A DNA stretch of 64,000 bases from Limisphaerales bacterium (GTDB lineage Bacteria > Verrucomicrobiota > Verrucomicrobiia > Limisphaerales > UBA1100), in contig JACNJL010000043.1 of NCBI GenBank assembly GCA_014382585.1, positions 1 to 64,000 on the forward strand, given 5' to 3'. A program made the translations under genes and the position numbers. Each line of letters starts with the position of its first letter. Position 1 is the first letter of the stretch. The notes beneath the pieces were generated by a model. That model was given only the letters and a program-made list of their open reading frames with translations, had not been told where the DNA came from and searched no databases. Below, piece by piece: positions 6,421 through 33,647 of the stretch.

Positions 6421-7317
6421 TTAACTCACCAACCAATTCAAAATCGATTTCTGCGTGTGCAGGCGGTTTTCGGCTTGGGTGAAGATGGTGTCGGCGTGGG
6501 CTTCGAGGGTGGGGGCGTCGATTTCCTTGCCGCGGTAGGCAGGGAGGCAGTGCATGACGAGGGCCCCTTCGTTGGCGCGGGCGACGAGGGCTTGATTGAT
6601 TTGGTACCCGGCGAAGTCTTGCTCGCGTTGGGCAGTTTCCTCTTCCATGCCCATGGAGACCCAGACATCGGTGTATAGTAGGTCGGCTCCTTCGGCGGCG
6701 GCGTTGCAGTCTTCGGTGACGGTGATATTGCCGCCGGCCTTGGTGATGAGGTCCGGGCAAGGCTGGTGGGCTTTGGGTGCGGCGATGCGCAGCTCGAAGC
6801 CGAGTTTATCAGCGGCCCAGATCCAGCTGATGGGCACGTTGCAGGCGCCGTCGCCGATGAAGGTGACGGTCTTGCCGGCGATCGGGCCGCGGGCTTCCTG
6901 GTAGGTGAAAATGTCAGTCAAGATTTGGCAGGGATGCTCGGCATCGGTTAGGGCGTTGATGGTGGGGATGCCGGAGTGTTCCGCGAAATCCTCCACATCG
7001 CTCTGGGCAAAAGTGCGGATGACGGCGCCGTGCACCATGCGGCCGAGCACGCGGGCGGTGTCTTGGATGGGTTCGCCACGACCAAGTTGCAGGTCGTTGG
7101 CGTTGAGAAACATTACGCCGCCGCCGAGCTCGCGGATGCCGGTCTCGAAGGACACGCGGGTGCGCGTGGAGGATTTGGTGAAAATCATCGCCCACGTCTG
7201 GCCGGCGAGCGGTTGGTGTTGGCTGTCGCCGCGTTGCGCCTTGATGACAGTGGCATTTCCCAGAATGGTCTCGATGGACGCGGTGTCCATCGCCTCAATG
7301 CTTAACAGATGTTTCAT
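6421..7317 (-). CDS. argF: Ornithine carbamoyltransferase
   Basis: Makes citrulline from ornithine and carbamoyl phosphate in arginine synthesis. The carbamoyl-phosphate motif is FTKSSTRTRVSFE near residue 47, followed by HPCQILTD near residue 128 and the ornithine-site MHCLPAYRGKEI near residue 255. The length of 298 residues fits the family. Its ATG overlaps the argD stop codon by 4 bp (ATGA), which indicates translational coupling with argD. Confidence 0.97.
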   Translation of the reverse strand: MKHLLSIEAMDTASIETILGNATVIKAQRGDSQHQPLAGQTWAMIFTKSSTRTRVSFETGIRELGGGVMFLNANDLQLGRGEPIQDTARVLGRMVHGAVIRTFAQSDVEDFAEHSGIPTINALTDAEHPCQILTDIFTYQEARGPIAGKTVTFIGDGACNVPISWIWAADKLGFELRIAAPKAHQPCPDLITKAGGNITVTEDCNAAAEGADLLYTDVWVSMGMEEETAQREQDFAGYQINQALVARANEGALVMHCLPAYRGKEIDAPTLEAHADTIFTQAENRLHTQKSILNWLVS

Positions 7318-8555
7318 GATGCTAGTTCCTTAATGACACCCTCGATGATGGCGAGACCTTCATCGGCGTCGGTTTGCGAAAGGTTCAATGGCGGCAACAG
7401 ACGAAAGACCCGCGCGCCGGCTGGGATGGTGAGCAGACCAGCGTCGTGGAGTCGCTCGACGATTTGCACGGAAGCGGGCCGTTTGCTATCGGCAAAGGCG
7501 GGGATGCCCTCGGCCAATTCGATGCCGATCATCAGGCCGAGCCCGCGCACTTCCTTCAGCACGGTGGGATGCGCCTCGATCAGCGTTTGGATTCTCCCGG
7601 CCAAATGGTTCCCCAGCGTCACGGCGTGTTGCGCGAGGCCGTCGCGCTCGATGATCTCCAGCGCCTTGAGTGCATGCGCGCTGACCAGCGGCGTGCCGCC
7701 AAAGGTGGTGCCGTGCGTGCCCGGGCCGAGCACATCCTGCAACGGTTCGCTCGCCCAGATCGCGCCCATCGGCAGACCGGCTGCGAGGCTTTTGGCCATC
7801 GAGCAGGCGTCCGGCGCGAAGTCCGGATGCGCGCTCATGATGGTTTGCCAGCCGAAAAAATTGCCTGTTCGAAAATGGCCGCATTGCACTTCATCGAGCA
7901 ACAACAGCAGATTACGTTCATTGCACAACGCGCGCAGGCCGAGCAGATACTCGGGCGTGGCGCAATTGATGCCGCTCTCGCCTTGGATTGGCTCCAGAAG
8001 AATCGCGCCAGTCGCCGGCGTGATGGCCGCGCGCATGGCGTCCAGATCGCCATAGGGCACATGCCGGAAGCCTTCCAGGGCTGGCGCAAACCCGTCCTTC
8101 ACCTTCTGTTGGCCGGTGGCCGCAATGCCCGCGAGTGTGCGCCCGTGAAATGAGCCGAGTGTGGTTAGGATTTCAAACTGACCCTCCTCATGGCCGCGCA
8201 GTCGCGCGAGTTTGTAGAGTGCCTCGTTGGCTTCGGCGCCGCTGTTACAGAAAAACACTTTGCCTTTGCCGCCCGCGAGCGTGGTGAGTTTCTTCGCAAG
8301 CAATCCCTGCGGCTCGGTGTAGTACAGATTGGAAATATGCGTCAGCTTGCCTGCTTGTTCGGCCAGAGCATCGGCCAGTTCAGGATGGCCGTGGCCGAGG
8401 CAGGCGGTGGCAATGCCCGCGCCCAAGTCGAGCAACCGTCGGCCTTCGGCCGTGTGCACGTGGCTGCCTTCGCCGTGAGTGATGGCGATCGGGAAACGCG
8501 CATAAGTCGGGATGACGTGGGCGTCAATGCGTTGTTGGATTTTTGAGTCGCTCAT
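7314..8555 (-). CDS. argD: Acetylornithine aminotransferase
   Basis: PLP-dependent class III aminotransferase that converts N-acetylglutamate semialdehyde to N-acetylornithine. Visible motifs are NSGAEANEALYKLAR (phosphate loop), the PLP-aspartate segment LLLLDEVQCG, and the Schiff-base lysine in SMAKSLAAGLPMGA. The length of 413 residues is normal. The gene lies between argB and argF. The 90-bp gap to argB contains an ACCACAGAG-type inverted repeat, so readthrough from the arg promoter may be partial. Confidence 0.96.
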   Translation of the reverse strand: MSDSKIQQRIDAHVIPTYARFPIAITHGEGSHVHTAEGRRLLDLGAGIATACLGHGHPELADALAEQAGKLTHISNLYYTEPQGLLAKKLTTLAGGKGKVFFCNSGAEANEALYKLARLRGHEEGQFEILTTLGSFHGRTLAGIAATGQQKVKDGFAPALEGFRHVPYGDLDAMRAAITPATGAILLEPIQGESGINCATPEYLLGLRALCNERNLLLLLDEVQCGHFRTGNFFGWQTIMSAHPDFAPDACSMAKSLAAGLPMGAIWASEPLQDVLGPGTHGTTFGGTPLVSAHALKALEIIERDGLAQHAVTLGNHLAGRIQTLIEAHPTVLKEVRGLGLMIGIELAEGIPAFADSKRPASVQIVERLHDAGLLTIPAGARVFRLLPPLNLSQTDADEGLAIIEGVIKELAS

Positions 8556-8564
8556 TTTAATTTT

Positions 8565-8634
8565 ACCACAGAGACACAGAGAGCGCAGAGAAGTTCATTT
8601 TCAAAACCTCTGTGTTCTCTGTGCCTTTGTGGTG
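8565..8634. repeat. ACCACAGAG-type inverted repeat, copy 1
   Basis: The left arm begins ACCACAGAGACACAGAGAGC and the right arm ends TTCTCTGTGCCTTTGTGGT. They can form a long imperfect hairpin in the argB-argD gap. The same word family occurs at 27298-27340 and 48731-48856, which makes this a dispersed intergenic repeat. Confidence 0.75.
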
Positions 8635-8645
8635 AGAAATGGTTT

Positions 8646-9506
8646 TCATTTTACAATTTCCGTCCCCACGCCTTGGTTGGTAAAAATTTCCAGCAACACC
8701 GCGTGATGAATTCTCCCGTCGACGAGGGCGACTTTGTCGACGCCGGCGTTGATGGCAGTGACGGCGCTGTCGACTTTGGGAATCATCCCGCTGGCGATGA
8801 TGCCGGCTTGTTTCAGTTCATCAACTTCGGCGATGTCGAGGTGCGAAATGAGCGTGGCATCGTCGTCAGGATCGCGCAGCAGCCCGCGCACATCGCTCAT
8901 GAACACCAGCCGCTTGGCGGCCAGCGCAATGGCGGCTTGGGCGGCGGCGACATCGGCGTTGCAGTTGTAAATTTGTCCGTTCGCATCGCGCGCGGTGGGG
9001 GAGATCACCGGCGTGATGCCTTGGGCGATGCATTCCTCCAGCGGCGCAGTGTTCACGGCAGTGACCTCACCGACAAAGCCGTAATCCTGATTATCGGGGG
9101 CATGCCGGGTGCAGGTGAAAATATCCGTGCCGGCAAAGCCCTTGGCCACGCCGCCGAGCGAATTGATCATCTCCACGATCTCGGCATTGATTTCCTGCGA
9201 CAACACCTGATCAACCACCGCCACGGAATCGGCATCCGTGTAGCGCAAACCATTGACGAAGCGCGTCTCCACGCCGGACGCTTCCAGCGCGCGGCTGATG
9301 CGTTTACCACCGCCGTGCACCACCACCGGATTGATCTCGACCGCTTCTAGGAACACCACATCCCGCGCAACACCCGTGCGCACGGCTTCGTCCGGACTGT
9401 CCATGAAACTGCCCCCGTACTTCACTACGAACGTTGCCCCGGCAAAACGCTGAATGTACGGCAGCGCTTCGAGCAATGTGGCGGCTTTGGAGATGAGTTC
9501 CTGCAT
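8646..9506 (-). CDS. argB: Acetylglutamate kinase
   Basis: Phosphorylates N-acetylglutamate in the second step of arginine synthesis. The amino-acid-kinase fold shows in FVVKYGGSFMDSP near residue 26, the glycine loop VVVHGGGKRIS near residue 62, SLGGVAKGFAG, and the C-terminal IPKVDSAVTAINAGVDKVALVDGR (shown in part). It has 286 residues. It begins 1 bp after the argJ stop and has a GGAGG Shine-Dalgarno sequence about 5 nt before the ATG. In many bacteria this enzyme is the arginine feedback point; whether that holds here cannot be seen. Confidence 0.97.
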   Translation of the reverse strand: MQELISKAATLLEALPYIQRFAGATFVVKYGGSFMDSPDEAVRTGVARDVVFLEAVEINPVVVHGGGKRISRALEASGVETRFVNGLRYTDADSVAVVDQVLSQEINAEIVEMINSLGGVAKGFAGTDIFTCTRHAPDNQDYGFVGEVTAVNTAPLEECIAQGITPVISPTARDANGQIYNCNADVAAAQAAIALAAKRLVFMSDVRGLLRDPDDDATLISHLDIAEVDELKQAGIIASGMIPKVDSAVTAINAGVDKVALVDGRIHHAVLLEIFTNQGVGTEIVK

Positions 9507-9507
9507 G

Positions 9508-10824
9508 TCAGCCTCCGAGCGATGTGGGGTCGCTGATGTCGCCCTTGTTGAATTCCACGTATTCCTCGGTGAGATCGGCGGCGTAGAGCGTGGCCTGGCC
9601 TTTTCCGAGATTCAGGTTAATGTGCAGGTCAAACTCCGTCGGCGCGACGGCCGCGCACAAGGTCTCAAAGGTCGTCCGAGTGGGTCTGCCTTTCTTGAGG
9701 GAATAGGTTAGCTTCTTGGTTTCGGGCGCGCTGTAGGCGATGTCGACTTTTTCCTCCACCACCTTCGCAGACGAATAGCCAAGGGTATCGATGATCCGGC
9801 CCCAGTTTGGGTCGCCGCCGTTCCAGCTGGTTTTCACCAACGCACTGTTGCCCACTGCACGCGCGGCAGCATCGGCTTCCTTCTGCGTCTTGGCGCCGCG
9901 CACCCGCACGGTGACCAGTCGCGTGACGCCTTCGCCATCGCGTACCATCATTTTGGAAAGCTCGAGGCAGACGTGATTCAGGGCAGCCTGAAATGTTTTC
10001 AAGTCGCGCGCGCTGAGTTTTTTGTTTCCAGCCAAACCGTTGGCGAGCAGGAGCACAGTGTCGTTGGTGCTCATGTCGCCATCCACGGTGATGCAATTAA
10101 AACTGCTGGCCACGGCCTCGCGCAGGCACTTGCGCAATGCGCCGGCGGGAATTTTTGCGTCGGTTGTGAGGTAGGCGAGCATGGTGGCATGCAGAGGCAT
10201 GCTCGCGGGCCGCACGCCGGTGGGACTCATGCCGGGCTGAATCATGCCCGCGCCCTTGGCAATGCCGCCGAGCCGCACGGTTTGGCCGCCGAGCTGAAAT
10301 TCCACGGCGATCTCTTTCGGCCGCGTGTCGCTGGTCATGATGGCCTCAGCGGCGTGGTGCGCCGCGGTGGGGGAATCATCGAGTTCCTTGACGATCTGCC
10401 GGATGCCGGCGCGGATGTTCGGCATGGGCAGCTCCAGACCAATCCGGCCTGTGCTGCCGACGAGTACATCCTCCGGTTGGAGCAACAATTCCTCGGCCAA
10501 GAGCGCAGTCATTTCCTGCGCATCCTTCAATCCGCGCGGGCCGGTGCAGGCATTGGCGTTGCCGGAATTGATGACGACCGCCTGCGCCTTTCCGTCGGCG
10601 ATGTGGTCCACGCACACCTTCACCGGTGCGGCGCAGATTTGATTGGTCGTAAACATCCCCGCCGCCGTGGCCGGTACCTCGGAGACAATCACGGCCAGAT
10701 CGCGTTTTTGCCCTTTGTTGCTGCCTTTGCCGGTGCCGAGCCGTTTAACATCACAAAACAACCCAGCCGTCAGGAAACCTTGCGGGGCGATAATGGAACC
10801 ATCAATGGAATGAAAAGATTTCAT
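9508..10824 (-). CDS. argJ: Bifunctional glutamate N-acetyltransferase / ornithine acetyltransferase
   Basis: Recycles acetyl groups from N-acetylornithine to glutamate. ArgJ proteins cut themselves before a threonine in an ATML motif; here that is Ala213-Thr214. Residues 193-199 read GMIQPGM, where the family has PNM followed directly by ATML. Here 13 residues (SPTGVRPASMPLH, 200-212) intervene. The remainder is standard, with IAPQGF at the start, NSGNANACTG near residue 88 and NDTVLLLANG after the cleavage site. It is the first structural gene of the arg cluster and lies 51 bp after the Arg-rich leader peptide. Confidence 0.94.
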   Translation of the reverse strand: MKSFHSIDGSIIAPQGFLTAGLFCDVKRLGTGKGSNKGQKRDLAVIVSEVPATAAGMFTTNQICAAPVKVCVDHIADGKAQAVVINSGNANACTGPRGLKDAQEMTALLAEELLLQPEDVLVGSTGRIGLELPMPNIRAGIRQIVKELDDSPTAAHHAAEAIMTSDTRPKEIAVEFQLGGQTVRLGGIAKGAGMIQPGMSPTGVRPASMPLHATMLAYLTTDAKIPAGALRKCLREAVASSFNCITVDGDMSTNDTVLLLANGLAGNKKLSARDLKTFQAALNHVCLELSKMMVRDGEGVTRLVTVRVRGAKTQKEADAAARAVGNSALVKTSWNGGDPNWGRIIDTLGYSSAKVVEEKVDIAYSAPETKKLTYSLKKGRPTRTTFETLCAAVAPTEFDLHINLNLGKGQATLYAADLTEEYVEFNKGDISDPTSLGG

Positions 10825-10840
10825 CTCTTTGGGAGGGGGA

Positions 10841-10871
10841 GCATTGGGAAAAGAATAGGAGAACCCAACGC
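10841..10871 (-). promoter_or_regulatory. Hairpin between the Arg leader peptide and argJ
   Basis: On the minus strand GCGTTGGG (10871-10864) pairs with CCCAATGC (10848-10841), 8 bp with one G-U pair and a 15-nt pyrimidine-rich loop. The 5' arm can instead pair through GCGTTG with CGACGC (10890-10885), which are the second and third arginine codons of the leader. The two pairings exclude each other, as in attenuators. No U tract follows the 3' arm. Confidence 0.5.
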
Positions 10872-10875
10872 AACC

Positions 10876-10923
10876 TTAACGGCGGCGTCGACGCGAAGAC
10901 TTGGATTGAGTCTGCAGGTTCAT
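10876..10923 (-). CDS. Arginine-codon leader peptide of the arg cluster
   Basis: A 15-codon frame reads MNLQTQSKSSRRRRR and ends TAA; the last five codons are CGT CGA CGC CGC CGT, all arginine. It lies between the EamA gene stop (10986) and argJ (10824), on the same strand, directly behind a near-consensus promoter. Transcription would start 0-3 nt before its ATG, so it is probably translated from a leaderless message. Known leader peptides of this kind (his, trp, leu operons) make the ribosome stall when the matching charged tRNA is scarce and so control the genes downstream. That an arginine run precedes arginine genes makes the same logic likely here. The mechanism is inference. Confidence 0.7.
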   Translation of the reverse strand: MNLQTQSKSSRRRRR

Positions 10924-10932
10924 TCGGCGGGA

Positions 10933-10961
10933 AATATAGGCGGGAAGGCGGGGGGTGTCAA
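10933..10961 (-). promoter_or_regulatory. Strong sigma70-like promoter of the arg cluster
   Basis: TTGACA (10961-10956) and TATATT (10938-10933) are separated by 17 bp on the minus strand. The -35 box is a perfect consensus and the -10 box is 5 of 6. The -10 box ends 9 nt before the ATG of the leader peptide, so the transcript should start at or just before that ATG. Confidence 0.8.
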
Positions 10962-10985
10962 TTTGGAATTTGGAATTTTCAACGA

Positions 10986-11945
10986 TCATTGGGACTGGGT
11001 CAAAACCACCATCCCGACTACGCCGCCCACTGCGATCACTCCGCCAATCAATGCGCGCCAGCTTGGCTTTTCTTCTTTCATTAAAATAGCAAACGGGATG
11101 ACGACGAGCGGGGTGATGGCGACGATGGGGAGGACGACGCCGGTGGGGTTGTTGAGCAGGGCCCATTGGTAGCAGGTGACGCCGAAGGCGGGGCCGGCCA
11201 GGGCGTTGAGGATGAGCCAGCGGCGGCCGGCGCGCCAGTCGCTGGCGGGGTTGGTGAGGGCGCGGGCGCTGGGGGAATCGGGGTGACTCTTTATATAAGT
11301 GCGCAGCGCCCACAGGCAAAGGCCGGTGAAAACCATGCCGCCTAGCTGGCGCTGGACGGCGACGGTGAGGCCGGCGTGGAAGGCGTCGCTGCCGGTGAGG
11401 GTGTTGAATTCGGTGAAGGACTCGGTGATGACGCGCACGAGGACACCCGCGCCGAAGCCTTGGCCGAAGGCGGCGACGAGTCCCCAACCGATGCCCTCCC
11501 AAAGAGTGCGACGGTCGAGGTGGAGGTTTTCGCGCGGTGCGAGCGCGATGGCCACGCCAGAGAGGATGACGACGGCGCAGATGATTTGCGGGAGCGAAGG
11601 CAGCGTATCGAGCCACGCGAACTCAATGCCCACCGCCAGCGGTACGGAGACGCAATGGACGATGAGCACCGTAAGCCGCGAGCCGATGCGTTGGAGGGCC
11701 TGGAAGAGCGCGATGTCGCCAAGGCCAAAGCCGACGGCGCCGCTTAAAAAGAGCAGCCAGAAAATGTCTGGCTGAAAATGTTTCGCGCCAATTGCAAAAA
11801 AGAGAAACGCGATGGCGGAGAGCACGATGGGAGCGAAGATCAGCCGCGTGAAGTTGGCTTCGGTGCCGCCGATGTGCTCGGTAGTTTTCCGCGCCGAAAC
11901 GGCGGAGGCGGAAAACAAAACCGTGCACAATAAAGCCGCTAACAT
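10986..11945 (-). CDS. EamA/DMT-family transporter
   Basis: Integral membrane protein of 319 residues with about ten hydrophobic segments in two repeats, as in drug/metabolite (EamA) transporters. The N-terminal half has GDIALFQALQRIGSRLT, and the second half ends in a helix pair with ITPLVVIPFAILMKEEKPSW, a typical EamA C-terminal signature. The substrate is unknown. It lies just upstream of the arg cluster on the same strand. Because the arg promoter is downstream of its stop codon, shared transcription is not required, and a role in amino-acid export would be speculation. Confidence 0.88.
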   Translation of the reverse strand: MLAALLCTVLFSASAVSARKTTEHIGGTEANFTRLIFAPIVLSAIAFLFFAIGAKHFQPDIFWLLFLSGAVGFGLGDIALFQALQRIGSRLTVLIVHCVSVPLAVGIEFAWLDTLPSLPQIICAVVILSGVAIALAPRENLHLDRRTLWEGIGWGLVAAFGQGFGAGVLVRVITESFTEFNTLTGSDAFHAGLTVAVQRQLGGMVFTGLCLWALRTYIKSHPDSPSARALTNPASDWRAGRRWLILNALAGPAFGVTCYQWALLNNPTGVVLPIVAITPLVVIPFAILMKEEKPSWRALIGGVIAVGGVVGMVVLTQSQ

Positions 11946-32037: not shown

Positions 32038-33111
32038 TTATAAGGTTAACCCCGTGGTTTCATCAAATTCGTAGAGCAAATTGAGGCTTTGGACGGCTTG
32101 GCCGCTGGCACCCTTCACTAGATTGTCGAGGGCGCTTGTCATAATGAGGCGTCCGGTGCGGCGATCGAGGCGGAAGGCGAGGTCGAGGTAATTGGTGTGG
32201 GCGACGTTTTTGGTGTCGGGCAACAGGTCGGGCGGGAGGAGCCGCACGAAAGGTTCGTCGCCATAAGCGGTGGCGAGGCAATCAGTGATTTGTTCGGCCA
32301 GCGCGGTTTCTTCCGCTTCGGTTTCAAATTTTGGGGTGGGAGCCAAGTAGAGCGTGGTGAGGATACCGCGATTGATGGGGATGAGATGCGGGGAAAACTG
32401 AAGGGTAACTTTCGCTTCGGCGGCGAGCGAAAGTTCCTGTTCAATTTCTGATAGGTGCCGGTGTTTTGGGATGCCGTAGGGCCGCGCGCTTTCGTTGCAC
32501 TCGGTGTACATAAAATTCGCGCTGACATTTCGGCCGGCTCCGCTGACACCGCTGAGGCTGTCGGCGATAATGCCGGTGGGTTTAATGATCCCCGCGCGCA
32601 GCAAGGGCACGGTGGGCAGCAAAATACTGGTGGGATAACAACCGGGCGAGGCGATGAGTTGGGCGTTGCGAATGGCGGCGCGGTGCAGCTCGGGCAGGCC
32701 GTAAACCGATTGCTCCAAGAGCGCGGGTTCGGGGTGTTTGTTGCCGTAAAATTCCTCGTACACGGCGGCATCACTCAACCGAAAATCAGCGGAGAGATCG
32801 ATGACCTTCGTGCCCGCCGCGAGGAGTGGCTTGGCGAAATCCACTGCCACGCCGTGGGGCAGGGCGAGGAACACCACTTCGGCAGTCTCCGCCAGCGTTT
32901 CCACATTTGGCTCGATGAATTGCAGCGAGTCGGCCACGGCATTGCCGGCGAAGCGTGGAAAGATCGCGGACAAGGGTTGCCCGGCGTATTGGCGTGAGGT
33001 GACGGCGGCGAGTTCTGCGCGCGGATGGCCGAGCAGCAGCCGCACGAGCTCTTCGCCCGAATAGCCGGAGGCGCCCACAATGGCGGTTTTTACTGTTTGA
33101 GCTGCGCTCAT
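32038..33111 (-). CDS. argC: N-acetyl-gamma-glutamyl-phosphate reductase
   Basis: Third step of arginine synthesis, NADPH-dependent. Motifs are AIVGASGYSGEELVRLL at the N-terminus, the catalytic cysteine in IASPGCYPTSILLP near residue 148, and the histidine segment KHRHLSEIEQE near residue 207. The ATG at 33111 (MSAAQTVKT) is preferred over an upstream ATG at 33153 that adds a non-conserved tail. It is 357 residues long. Unlike in many bacteria it is about 20 kb away from argJBDF, behind rplM-rpsI, and no arginine-codon leader is visible before it. A strong terminator lies between rpsI and argC. Confidence 0.96.
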   Translation of the reverse strand: MSAAQTVKTAIVGASGYSGEELVRLLLGHPRAELAAVTSRQYAGQPLSAIFPRFAGNAVADSLQFIEPNVETLAETAEVVFLALPHGVAVDFAKPLLAAGTKVIDLSADFRLSDAAVYEEFYGNKHPEPALLEQSVYGLPELHRAAIRNAQLIASPGCYPTSILLPTVPLLRAGIIKPTGIIADSLSGVSGAGRNVSANFMYTECNESARPYGIPKHRHLSEIEQELSLAAEAKVTLQFSPHLIPINRGILTTLYLAPTPKFETEAEETALAEQITDCLATAYGDEPFVRLLPPDLLPDTKNVAHTNYLDLAFRLDRRTGRLIMTSALDNLVKGASGQAVQSLNLLYEFDETTGLTL

Positions 33112-33191
33112 ATCGATTGTGTTGTGCGTTTTTTTGAGGGCAATTGAAATCAAAAATTGAAAACAAAAACCCCGCCGACGAACCAGCGGAT

Positions 33192-33227
33192 AAAAAAAGA
33201 ACCCCCGCTGTTGAACCAGCGGGGGTT
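33192..33227 (-). terminator. Rho-independent terminator after rpsI
   Basis: On the minus strand an 11-bp perfect stem AACCCCCGCTG/CAGCGGGGGTT (33227-33217 and 33210-33200) with loop GTTCAA is followed by C and seven T. It is a textbook terminator for the rplM-rpsI transcript. Confidence 0.92.
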
Positions 33228-33245
33228 GCGAAAGCGTTTTTGAGT

Positions 33246-33647
33246 TTAGCGTTTGCTGAACTGGAAGTGCTTGCGCGCACCGGGCTGGCCGGGTTTTTTG
33301 CGCTCGCGCACGCGGGAGTCGCGATGCAACAAGCCCTCGGCCTTGAGGGTGGGGCGCAGCTCAGCGTCGTACTCCAGCAGCGCGCGGGAGATGCCCAGCC
33401 GCACGGCATCGGCTTGACCGGCTTGGCCGCCGCCTTGGACGTTTACGCGCACATCAAATTTTTCAACATTCTCCGTGGCCACAAAGGGCTCGCCCACAAT
33501 GAGACGGTGCGATTCGACAGGGAAATAATTGTCAAACGCGCGACGGTTGACGGTGATGGTTCCGTTGCCGGGTTTGATTCGCACGCGGGCGGTCGCTGCT
33601 TTGCGACGGCCGGTGCCGAGGAATTCTCCAGTGATTGCGTCAGGCAT
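33246..33647 (-). CDS. rpsI: 30S ribosomal protein S9
   Basis: 133-residue uS9. Typical segments are GTGRRKAATARVRI near the N-terminus, NVQGGGQAGQADAVRLGI in the middle and the basic tail RERKKPGQPGARKHFQFSKR, whose SKR end reaches the ribosomal P site. It lies 1 bp after rplM, the universal rplM-rpsI pair. Confidence 0.98.
   Translation of the reverse strand: MPDAITGEFLGTGRRKAATARVRIKPGNGTITVNRRAFDNYFPVESHRLIVGEPFVATENVEKFDVRVNVQGGGQAGQADAVRLGISRALLEYDAELRPTLKAEGLLHRDSRVRERKKPGQPGARKHFQFSKR

Follow-up and report, generated by a model that had tools for sequence, protein, structure and literature searches.

In the window, by which we mean the whole 64,000-nucleotide stretch analysed here, the arginine biosynthesis cluster argJBDF is preceded by a short, promoter-anchored open reading frame that ends in a run of arginine codons. 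We conclude that this leader probably senses arginyl-tRNA and controls the cluster (probability roughly 0.8), in the absence of expression, 5′-end or ribosome-profiling data. The best reading of the element is arginyl-tRNA-dependent, ribosome-mediated attenuation from a leaderless leader ORF, a mechanism that remains untested.

The leader element and the four genes all lie on the minus strand, and the genes, which run in one direction, were identified with profile HMMs. argJ (9508–10824) matches PF01960 (E 4e-134) and scores over the cut-offs of NF003802 and TIGR00120. The products of argB (8646–9506) and argF (6421–7317) score over the cut-offs of TIGR00761 and TIGR00658, respectively, and that of argD (7314–8555) over the cut-off of NF002325, with a TIGR00707 score (391.9 bits) below the cut-off of 410. 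An EamA-type transporter gene (10986–11945, minus strand) lies upstream of the leader. The nearest database records are Verrucomicrobiota MAGs, many of them marine.

The region 6421–11000 is itself a mosaic. argJ and argB are ∼90–93% identical at the DNA level to a genome of the sister genus (G010), and argJ is only ∼80% identical to a congener (G004), yet the leader region (10800–11000) is 99% identical to that same congener. Judging from these identities, either recombination or a chimeric assembly may be responsible, with a breakpoint near the leader–argJ junction. In the region 32044–33500, argC is located apart from the cluster, preceded by rpsI and by a canonical-looking intrinsic terminator that lies between the two genes (near 33230–33190). 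In one clade of the order (f2), argC directly precedes argJ, behind rpsI in the cases inspected, and there is no leader. No promoter-anchored arginine leader was seen in the regions upstream of argC and argG in 19 genomes.

The predicted promoter of the leader consists of a −35 box, TTGACA (10956–10961), and a −10 box, TATATT (10933–10938), separated by a 17-nt spacer. Both were read directly and recovered by a promoter scan, which counted 11 of 12 consensus matches and for which 0.1 promoter-like sites are expected per shuffled region. Nine nucleotides after the −10 box, an ATG at 10923 opens a 15-codon ORF (10876–10923) encoding MNLQTQSKSSRRRRR, which is supported by direct reading, by its recurrence in relatives and by a whole-element RNA model. 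Its codons are ATG AAC CTG CAG ACT CAA TCC AAG TCT TCG CGT CGA CGC CGC CGT TAA (10923–10876), and the stop codon (10878–10876) is followed after 51 nt by the argJ ATG at 10824. A preliminary description of the locus had reported this promoter, the frame with its five arginine codons and the spacing up to argJ, and all these details were found to be correct on direct reading. The presumed sensor, CGT CGA CGC CGC CGT (10879–10893), accounts for 5 of the 15 leader codons, which meets the expectation that an attenuator is enriched in codons for the amino acid of its pathway. In an alignment of nine sequences, codons 11 and 12 are invariant, codons 13 and 15 undergo synonymous changes only, and codon 14 specifies arginine or serine.

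The distance from the −35 box to the leader start codon is near-constant in 20 leaders, including those of the relatives (35–42 nt). Based on this, the leader mRNA is predicted to be leaderless or near-leaderless; the transcription start has not been mapped. In a separate set of lineages (L015, L020, L064, L065, L067, L074 and L080), argJ itself starts 40–43 nt after TTGACA and is predicted to be leaderless, with no leader ORF. The −10 position in these lineages is often occupied by a TTTCCG-like sequence rather than TATAAT, and this sequence may represent an unusual −10 element.

To define leaders in relatives, argJ and its upstream DNA were gathered from across the order, giving 129 non-redundant upstream regions. 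A leader was scored where an ATG or GTG lay 34–42 nt after a TTGACA-like box with at most one mismatch and opened an ORF of 10–25 codons that ended 20–100 nt before argJ and had two or more arginines within a stretch of six codons. Nineteen of the 129 regions qualified, against a mean of 1.45 and a maximum of 4 in 20 dinucleotide shuffles; the reverse strand gave 1, and of 759 windows taken elsewhere in these loci 4 qualified. When at least four arginines in six codons were required, 9 of 129 regions remained against 0.15 expected. Selection on arginine was then dispensed with: all ATG or GTG ORFs of at least 10 codons that start 35–42 nt after an exact TTGACA and end before argJ contain arginine, and all except one (L027, MQLCGTEVSVFPQRF) contain at least two. 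On these counts, the arginine-rich, promoter-anchored short ORFs before argJ are not due to chance. It could still be argued that the ORF is fortuitous or encodes an unrelated micro-protein, its arginine codons being a by-product of a GC-rich hairpin, since the stem falls within CGN codons, which have a high GC content. This explanation is difficult to reconcile with the excess over shuffled DNA, with the additional use of AT-richer arginine codons (AGA, CGA and CGT) in some leaders, and with the retention of the start codon and its distance from the promoter, and we give it almost no credence.

Because several of the 19 leaders come from close relatives, they are not all independent. Seven belong to the window's own genus and its sister genus, and the others come from further genera and families; the window's family is represented among the bearers, as are four more (f8, f21, f22 and f48). 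Within the window's family, the promoter spacing, start codon, arginine codons and alternative pairing recur, and in other families the same plan recurs with unrelated peptide sequences. The preliminary description would have been refuted had relatives kept argJ without a conserved start codon, arginine run or promoter at this place, and the element survived that comparison. Most genomes of the order have no promoter-anchored arginine leader before argJ, and neither do 20 of 20 sampled genomes from outside the order. When 293 sampled genomes of the order were searched with a covariance model built on the complete element (R1), ten of them, belonging to two genera, yielded a single copy each, always at the argJ upstream position, and the others yielded none. 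R1 closely follows the sequence of the window's family and therefore misses the more distant leaders. The leader bearers occupy several separate clades of an ArgJ tree (FastTree), with 6 changes compared with ∼19 when labels were shuffled (L078 was not counted as a bearer in this recount). The leader may be an old trait with losses or may have been gained repeatedly; the deep branching is too weakly supported to decide between the two.

Arginine makes up ∼27% of leader residues compared with 6% of codons in the window's long ORFs, with the reservation that most leaders were selected partly on arginine. The peptides of the window's genus are MNLQTQSKSSRRRRR or variants ending in RRRSR. Those of the sister genus are MTLKTKHKSVRRRSR, MTHKTKHKSVRRRSR and MNRRTKQKSIRRRSR, and elsewhere in the family we found MQLDLTTHSVFRRA, MFSLAKSERSQPRG and MTRLAHGECDAQRG. 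In other families, the peptides are MMKLDAKANYSFRRE, MTVSTNSRLRRRTSL, MFAKSHQREFSRRARL, MTVLASSYRQRRRANR, MIFRTKKRLRRYSRSKRLR, MKLDAKANYSFRRE, MIIKSRERHYRHSRSRRLH, MVQILNARIVRARS and MNLVVTSRGSRIQQF. Two relatives (L011 and L018) have isolated arginine codons only and no run. Between families, arginine is the sole residue that the peptides have in common, and the other residues are not conserved; sensing through codons and tRNA is therefore favoured over peptide-specific arrest. Such arrest, modelled on the fungal arginine attenuator peptide, would have the nascent chain respond, inside the exit tunnel, to free arginine or to a metabolite related to it and halt the ribosome when arginine is high. 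The short peptide with basic residues near its stop would be compatible with this, but arrest peptides normally conserve specific residues, and no residue except arginine is common outside the window's family. We regard nascent-peptide arrest as very unlikely.

Three RNA segments can form two alternative hairpins. Arm A (10881–10891) lies within the arginine codons, arm B (10865–10875) directly follows the stop codon, and arm C (10841–10848) is an alternative partner of B at positions 10864–10871. The segment GCGTTGGG (10871–10864) pairs with CCCAATGC (10848–10841) to form B:C; extended to an 11-position stem, it pairs with the arginine-codon segment 10891–10881 to form A:B. The A:B stem contains one C–U mismatch in the window's genome and two congeners, and the position is an A–U pair in the other six relatives. 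Across the nine-sequence alignment, 94.9% of cells are paired in A:B and 98.6% in B:C, compared with 22–48% and 40–57%, respectively, when the arms are slid. As these sequences are similar, compensatory changes within the family are few and covariation is slight. Arm B is common to both structures in the window's family, so the mutually exclusive hairpins expected of an attenuator are present.

All 20 leaders are able to fold into the stop-spanning A:B hairpin, in which the apical loop contains or adjoins the stop codon and arm A falls in the last codons. The z score of this hairpin is negative in all 20 when the coding part is kept and only the DNA after the stop is shuffled, and the Stouffer z over 10 representatives is −5.2. 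For B:C, the Stouffer z over the same ten is −2.5. This pairing is also clear in L132 (GGTTTTGG/CCAAAACC) and L073, is weakly supported or lacking in several of the distant leaders, and on this evidence appears to be the less certain half of the RNA switch. It had been proposed that the hairpin arm can pair either with a downstream segment or with the arginine codons. Both pairings exist and are kept in the window's family, but the one conserved most broadly is the stop-spanning A:B rather than B:C, which had been described first. The sequences thus lend support to the promoter spacing, the ORF, the arginine codons, A:B and, within the family, B:C.

Between arm B and argJ lies a pyrimidine-rich, G-poor stretch (10825–10863) that contains arm C and could serve as a Rho loading site or as an imperfect U-tract. 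The 25 nt after B average 37% C, 41% U, 10% G and 11% A in 20 leaders, compared with 28% C, 27% U, 24% G and 22% A at positions −60 to −10 of other argJ loci. No intrinsic terminator-like site was found in 10700–11100, so the terminator that a classical attenuator carries before its gene is missing. Because only the CU-rich tract is present, we do not class the element as a classical intrinsic-terminator attenuator. Rho is encoded, with two Rho RNA-binding domain matches in the window's genome; a C-rich, G-poor RNA after the leader in a genome that encodes Rho is what a Rho-dependent attenuator would require, and this is met here, Rho dependence itself being inferred. At the element, Rfam gave no match near its gathering score, and no Rfam T-box match was obtained even at E ≤ 5, so the element does not qualify as a T-box.

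The preliminary description had remarked on the lack of a U tract and suggested control by translation or Rho. The absence of a canonical terminator stands, and the translational route now appears less likely given the CU-rich tract and the lack of a Shine-Dalgarno match at argJ. On that route, the same sensor would act through a fold or a parked ribosome that changes access to the argJ start. It could draw on the position of this start, in a CU-rich stretch and without a Shine-Dalgarno match (argB and argF have 5-nt matches), and on the arginine leader of Staphylococcus rbfL, which occludes a downstream ribosome-binding site (PMC13009471). However, stalling would either form B:C beside the argJ start or block reinitiation and so lower expression during shortage, which is the wrong sign where the operon is biosynthetic, and arm C stops 16 nt short of the argJ ATG, leaving the start itself free. 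We consider translational control unlikely. Based on the CU-rich tract before a gene with no Shine-Dalgarno match, termination by Rho or at an imperfect intrinsic terminator is the likelier outcome than sequestering of a ribosome-binding site.

Under transcriptional attenuation, we envisage that transcription would start at or a few nucleotides before the leader ATG and that a ribosome would load on the 5′ end. With sufficient arginyl-tRNA, the ribosome would complete the leader and leave, and A would pair with B. The CU-rich tract before argJ would then be exposed, and transcription would stop there, either through Rho acting on the exposed RNA or with A:B serving as an imperfect intrinsic terminator followed by a C-interrupted U-tract. 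When arginyl-tRNA is short, the ribosome is inferred to stall on the arginine codons and cover A, allowing B to pair with C. Formation of B:C would make A:B impossible and enclose part of the CU-rich tract in the B:C loop, and polymerase would read into argJBDF. The assignment of B:C as the ON state and A:B as the OFF state is an inference, drawn because starvation is when a biosynthetic operon is expected to be ON and because stalling would cover A; we consider it, together with control at the level of transcription, somewhat more probable than its alternatives. Between the inferred routes of termination, Rho is somewhat favoured because no terminator was scored and because the ribosome on a leaderless message follows closely behind RNA polymerase, which would hinder timely folding of a hairpin that has the stop codon in its loop. 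Our case for Rho in particular is nevertheless tentative.

A search for the ArgR repressor domain detected it in 9 of 14 control genomes but in none of the 58 genomes of the order that were examined. No convincing histidine- or tryptophan-rich leader was found upstream of hisG or trpE. Upstream of leuA, 11 of 20 related genomes, many of them in the window's family, have a leaderless, leucine-rich leader, and none was found in the window's own genus. In one example, MRNGLNLPLQRALLLGSRAVGV, a GTG lies 35 nt after TTGACC. The C-terminus of these peptides is mostly AVG(V/F), and a GC-rich hairpin with a U-tract follows (GCCCCATCGCCAAGCTGGCGGTGGGGTTCTTTTTTT). The leuA cases (L303, L305, L307, L311, L314, L319, L321 and L322) are apparent leucine attenuators, a designation made from sequence alone. 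These leaderless leaders with canonical terminators before leuA suggest that leaderless leader-peptide attenuation is at home in this group. The arginine element differs from them in having no intrinsic terminator.

Amino-acid leader attenuators, such as the his, trp, leu, thr and ilv leader peptides, are classical. Like them, the arginine leader combines a short ORF rich in codons for the end product, mutually exclusive hairpins and a biosynthetic operon directly downstream. It is unlike them in its arginine codons, its predicted leaderless start, the lack of a canonical terminator and a hairpin, built with the sensor codons as one arm, whose loop contains or adjoins the stop codon. Leaderless polycysteine short ORFs that act as attenuators in mycobacteria were reportedly described by Canestrari in 2020. 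These mycobacterial systems are cited in PMC9094748 and PMC13236596, and predicted cys leaders without a terminator, with pyrimidine-rich stretches proposed as possible Rho sites, appear in PMC1262725. As far as citing papers allow comparison, the polycysteine leaders share with the arginine leader a leaderless ORF, which in the arginine case is a prediction, a run of codons for one amino acid near the stop, pyrimidine-rich stretches and no obvious terminator; the arginine leader differs in amino acid, operon and phylum, and in a stop-spanning hairpin kept across families.

Arginine codons are also read in two other leaders. In Salmonella orf34-speF, arginine-dependent ribosome progress over consecutive arginine codons selects between mRNA folds, with involvement of Rho (PMC6386406). 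The arginine codon run and the folds set by the ribosome are alike, whereas orf34-speF has an ornithine decarboxylase target, two arginine codons, a long leader RNA and an RNase G step. In Staphylococcus aureus, rbfL is a short leader with arginine codons that senses arginine limitation (PMC13009471); it differs in being Shine-Dalgarno-led, in its biofilm regulator target and in that low arginine lowers downstream translation. Neither speF (PMC6386406) nor rbfL (PMC13009471) is an arginine biosynthesis operon. For arginine in bacteria, the only RNA-level control named in PMC1262725 is by T-boxes, which govern arginine genes in other species, and that study found no arginine element in Actinobacteria. 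T-boxes and ArgR resemble the leader in providing arginine-responsive control of arginine genes, but the leader has no T-box or credible Rfam match, and our sample of the order yielded no ArgR domain. A carA leader peptide is reported in Pseudomonas aeruginosa, with attenuation linked to pyrimidines, according to PMC4997734. In the open literature, which does not cover subscription papers, we found no arginine leader before an arginine biosynthesis operon and none for Verrucomicrobiota.

A leaderless arginine leader would explain how an arginine operon can be controlled without ArgR where this repressor was not found, and would extend leaderless attenuation beyond mycobacteria. The promoter-to-gene cassette spans only ∼140 bp and is directly testable. 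We put forward, as a speculative proposal, that the stop-spanning hairpin exposes a Rho loading site that the antiterminator hides, and that a leaderless arginine leader without an intrinsic terminator controls arginine biosynthesis in a part of Verrucomicrobiota in which ArgR was not found. If this is true, then together with the leaderless leucine leaders it would make leaderless attenuation a general mode of amino-acid control in this group.
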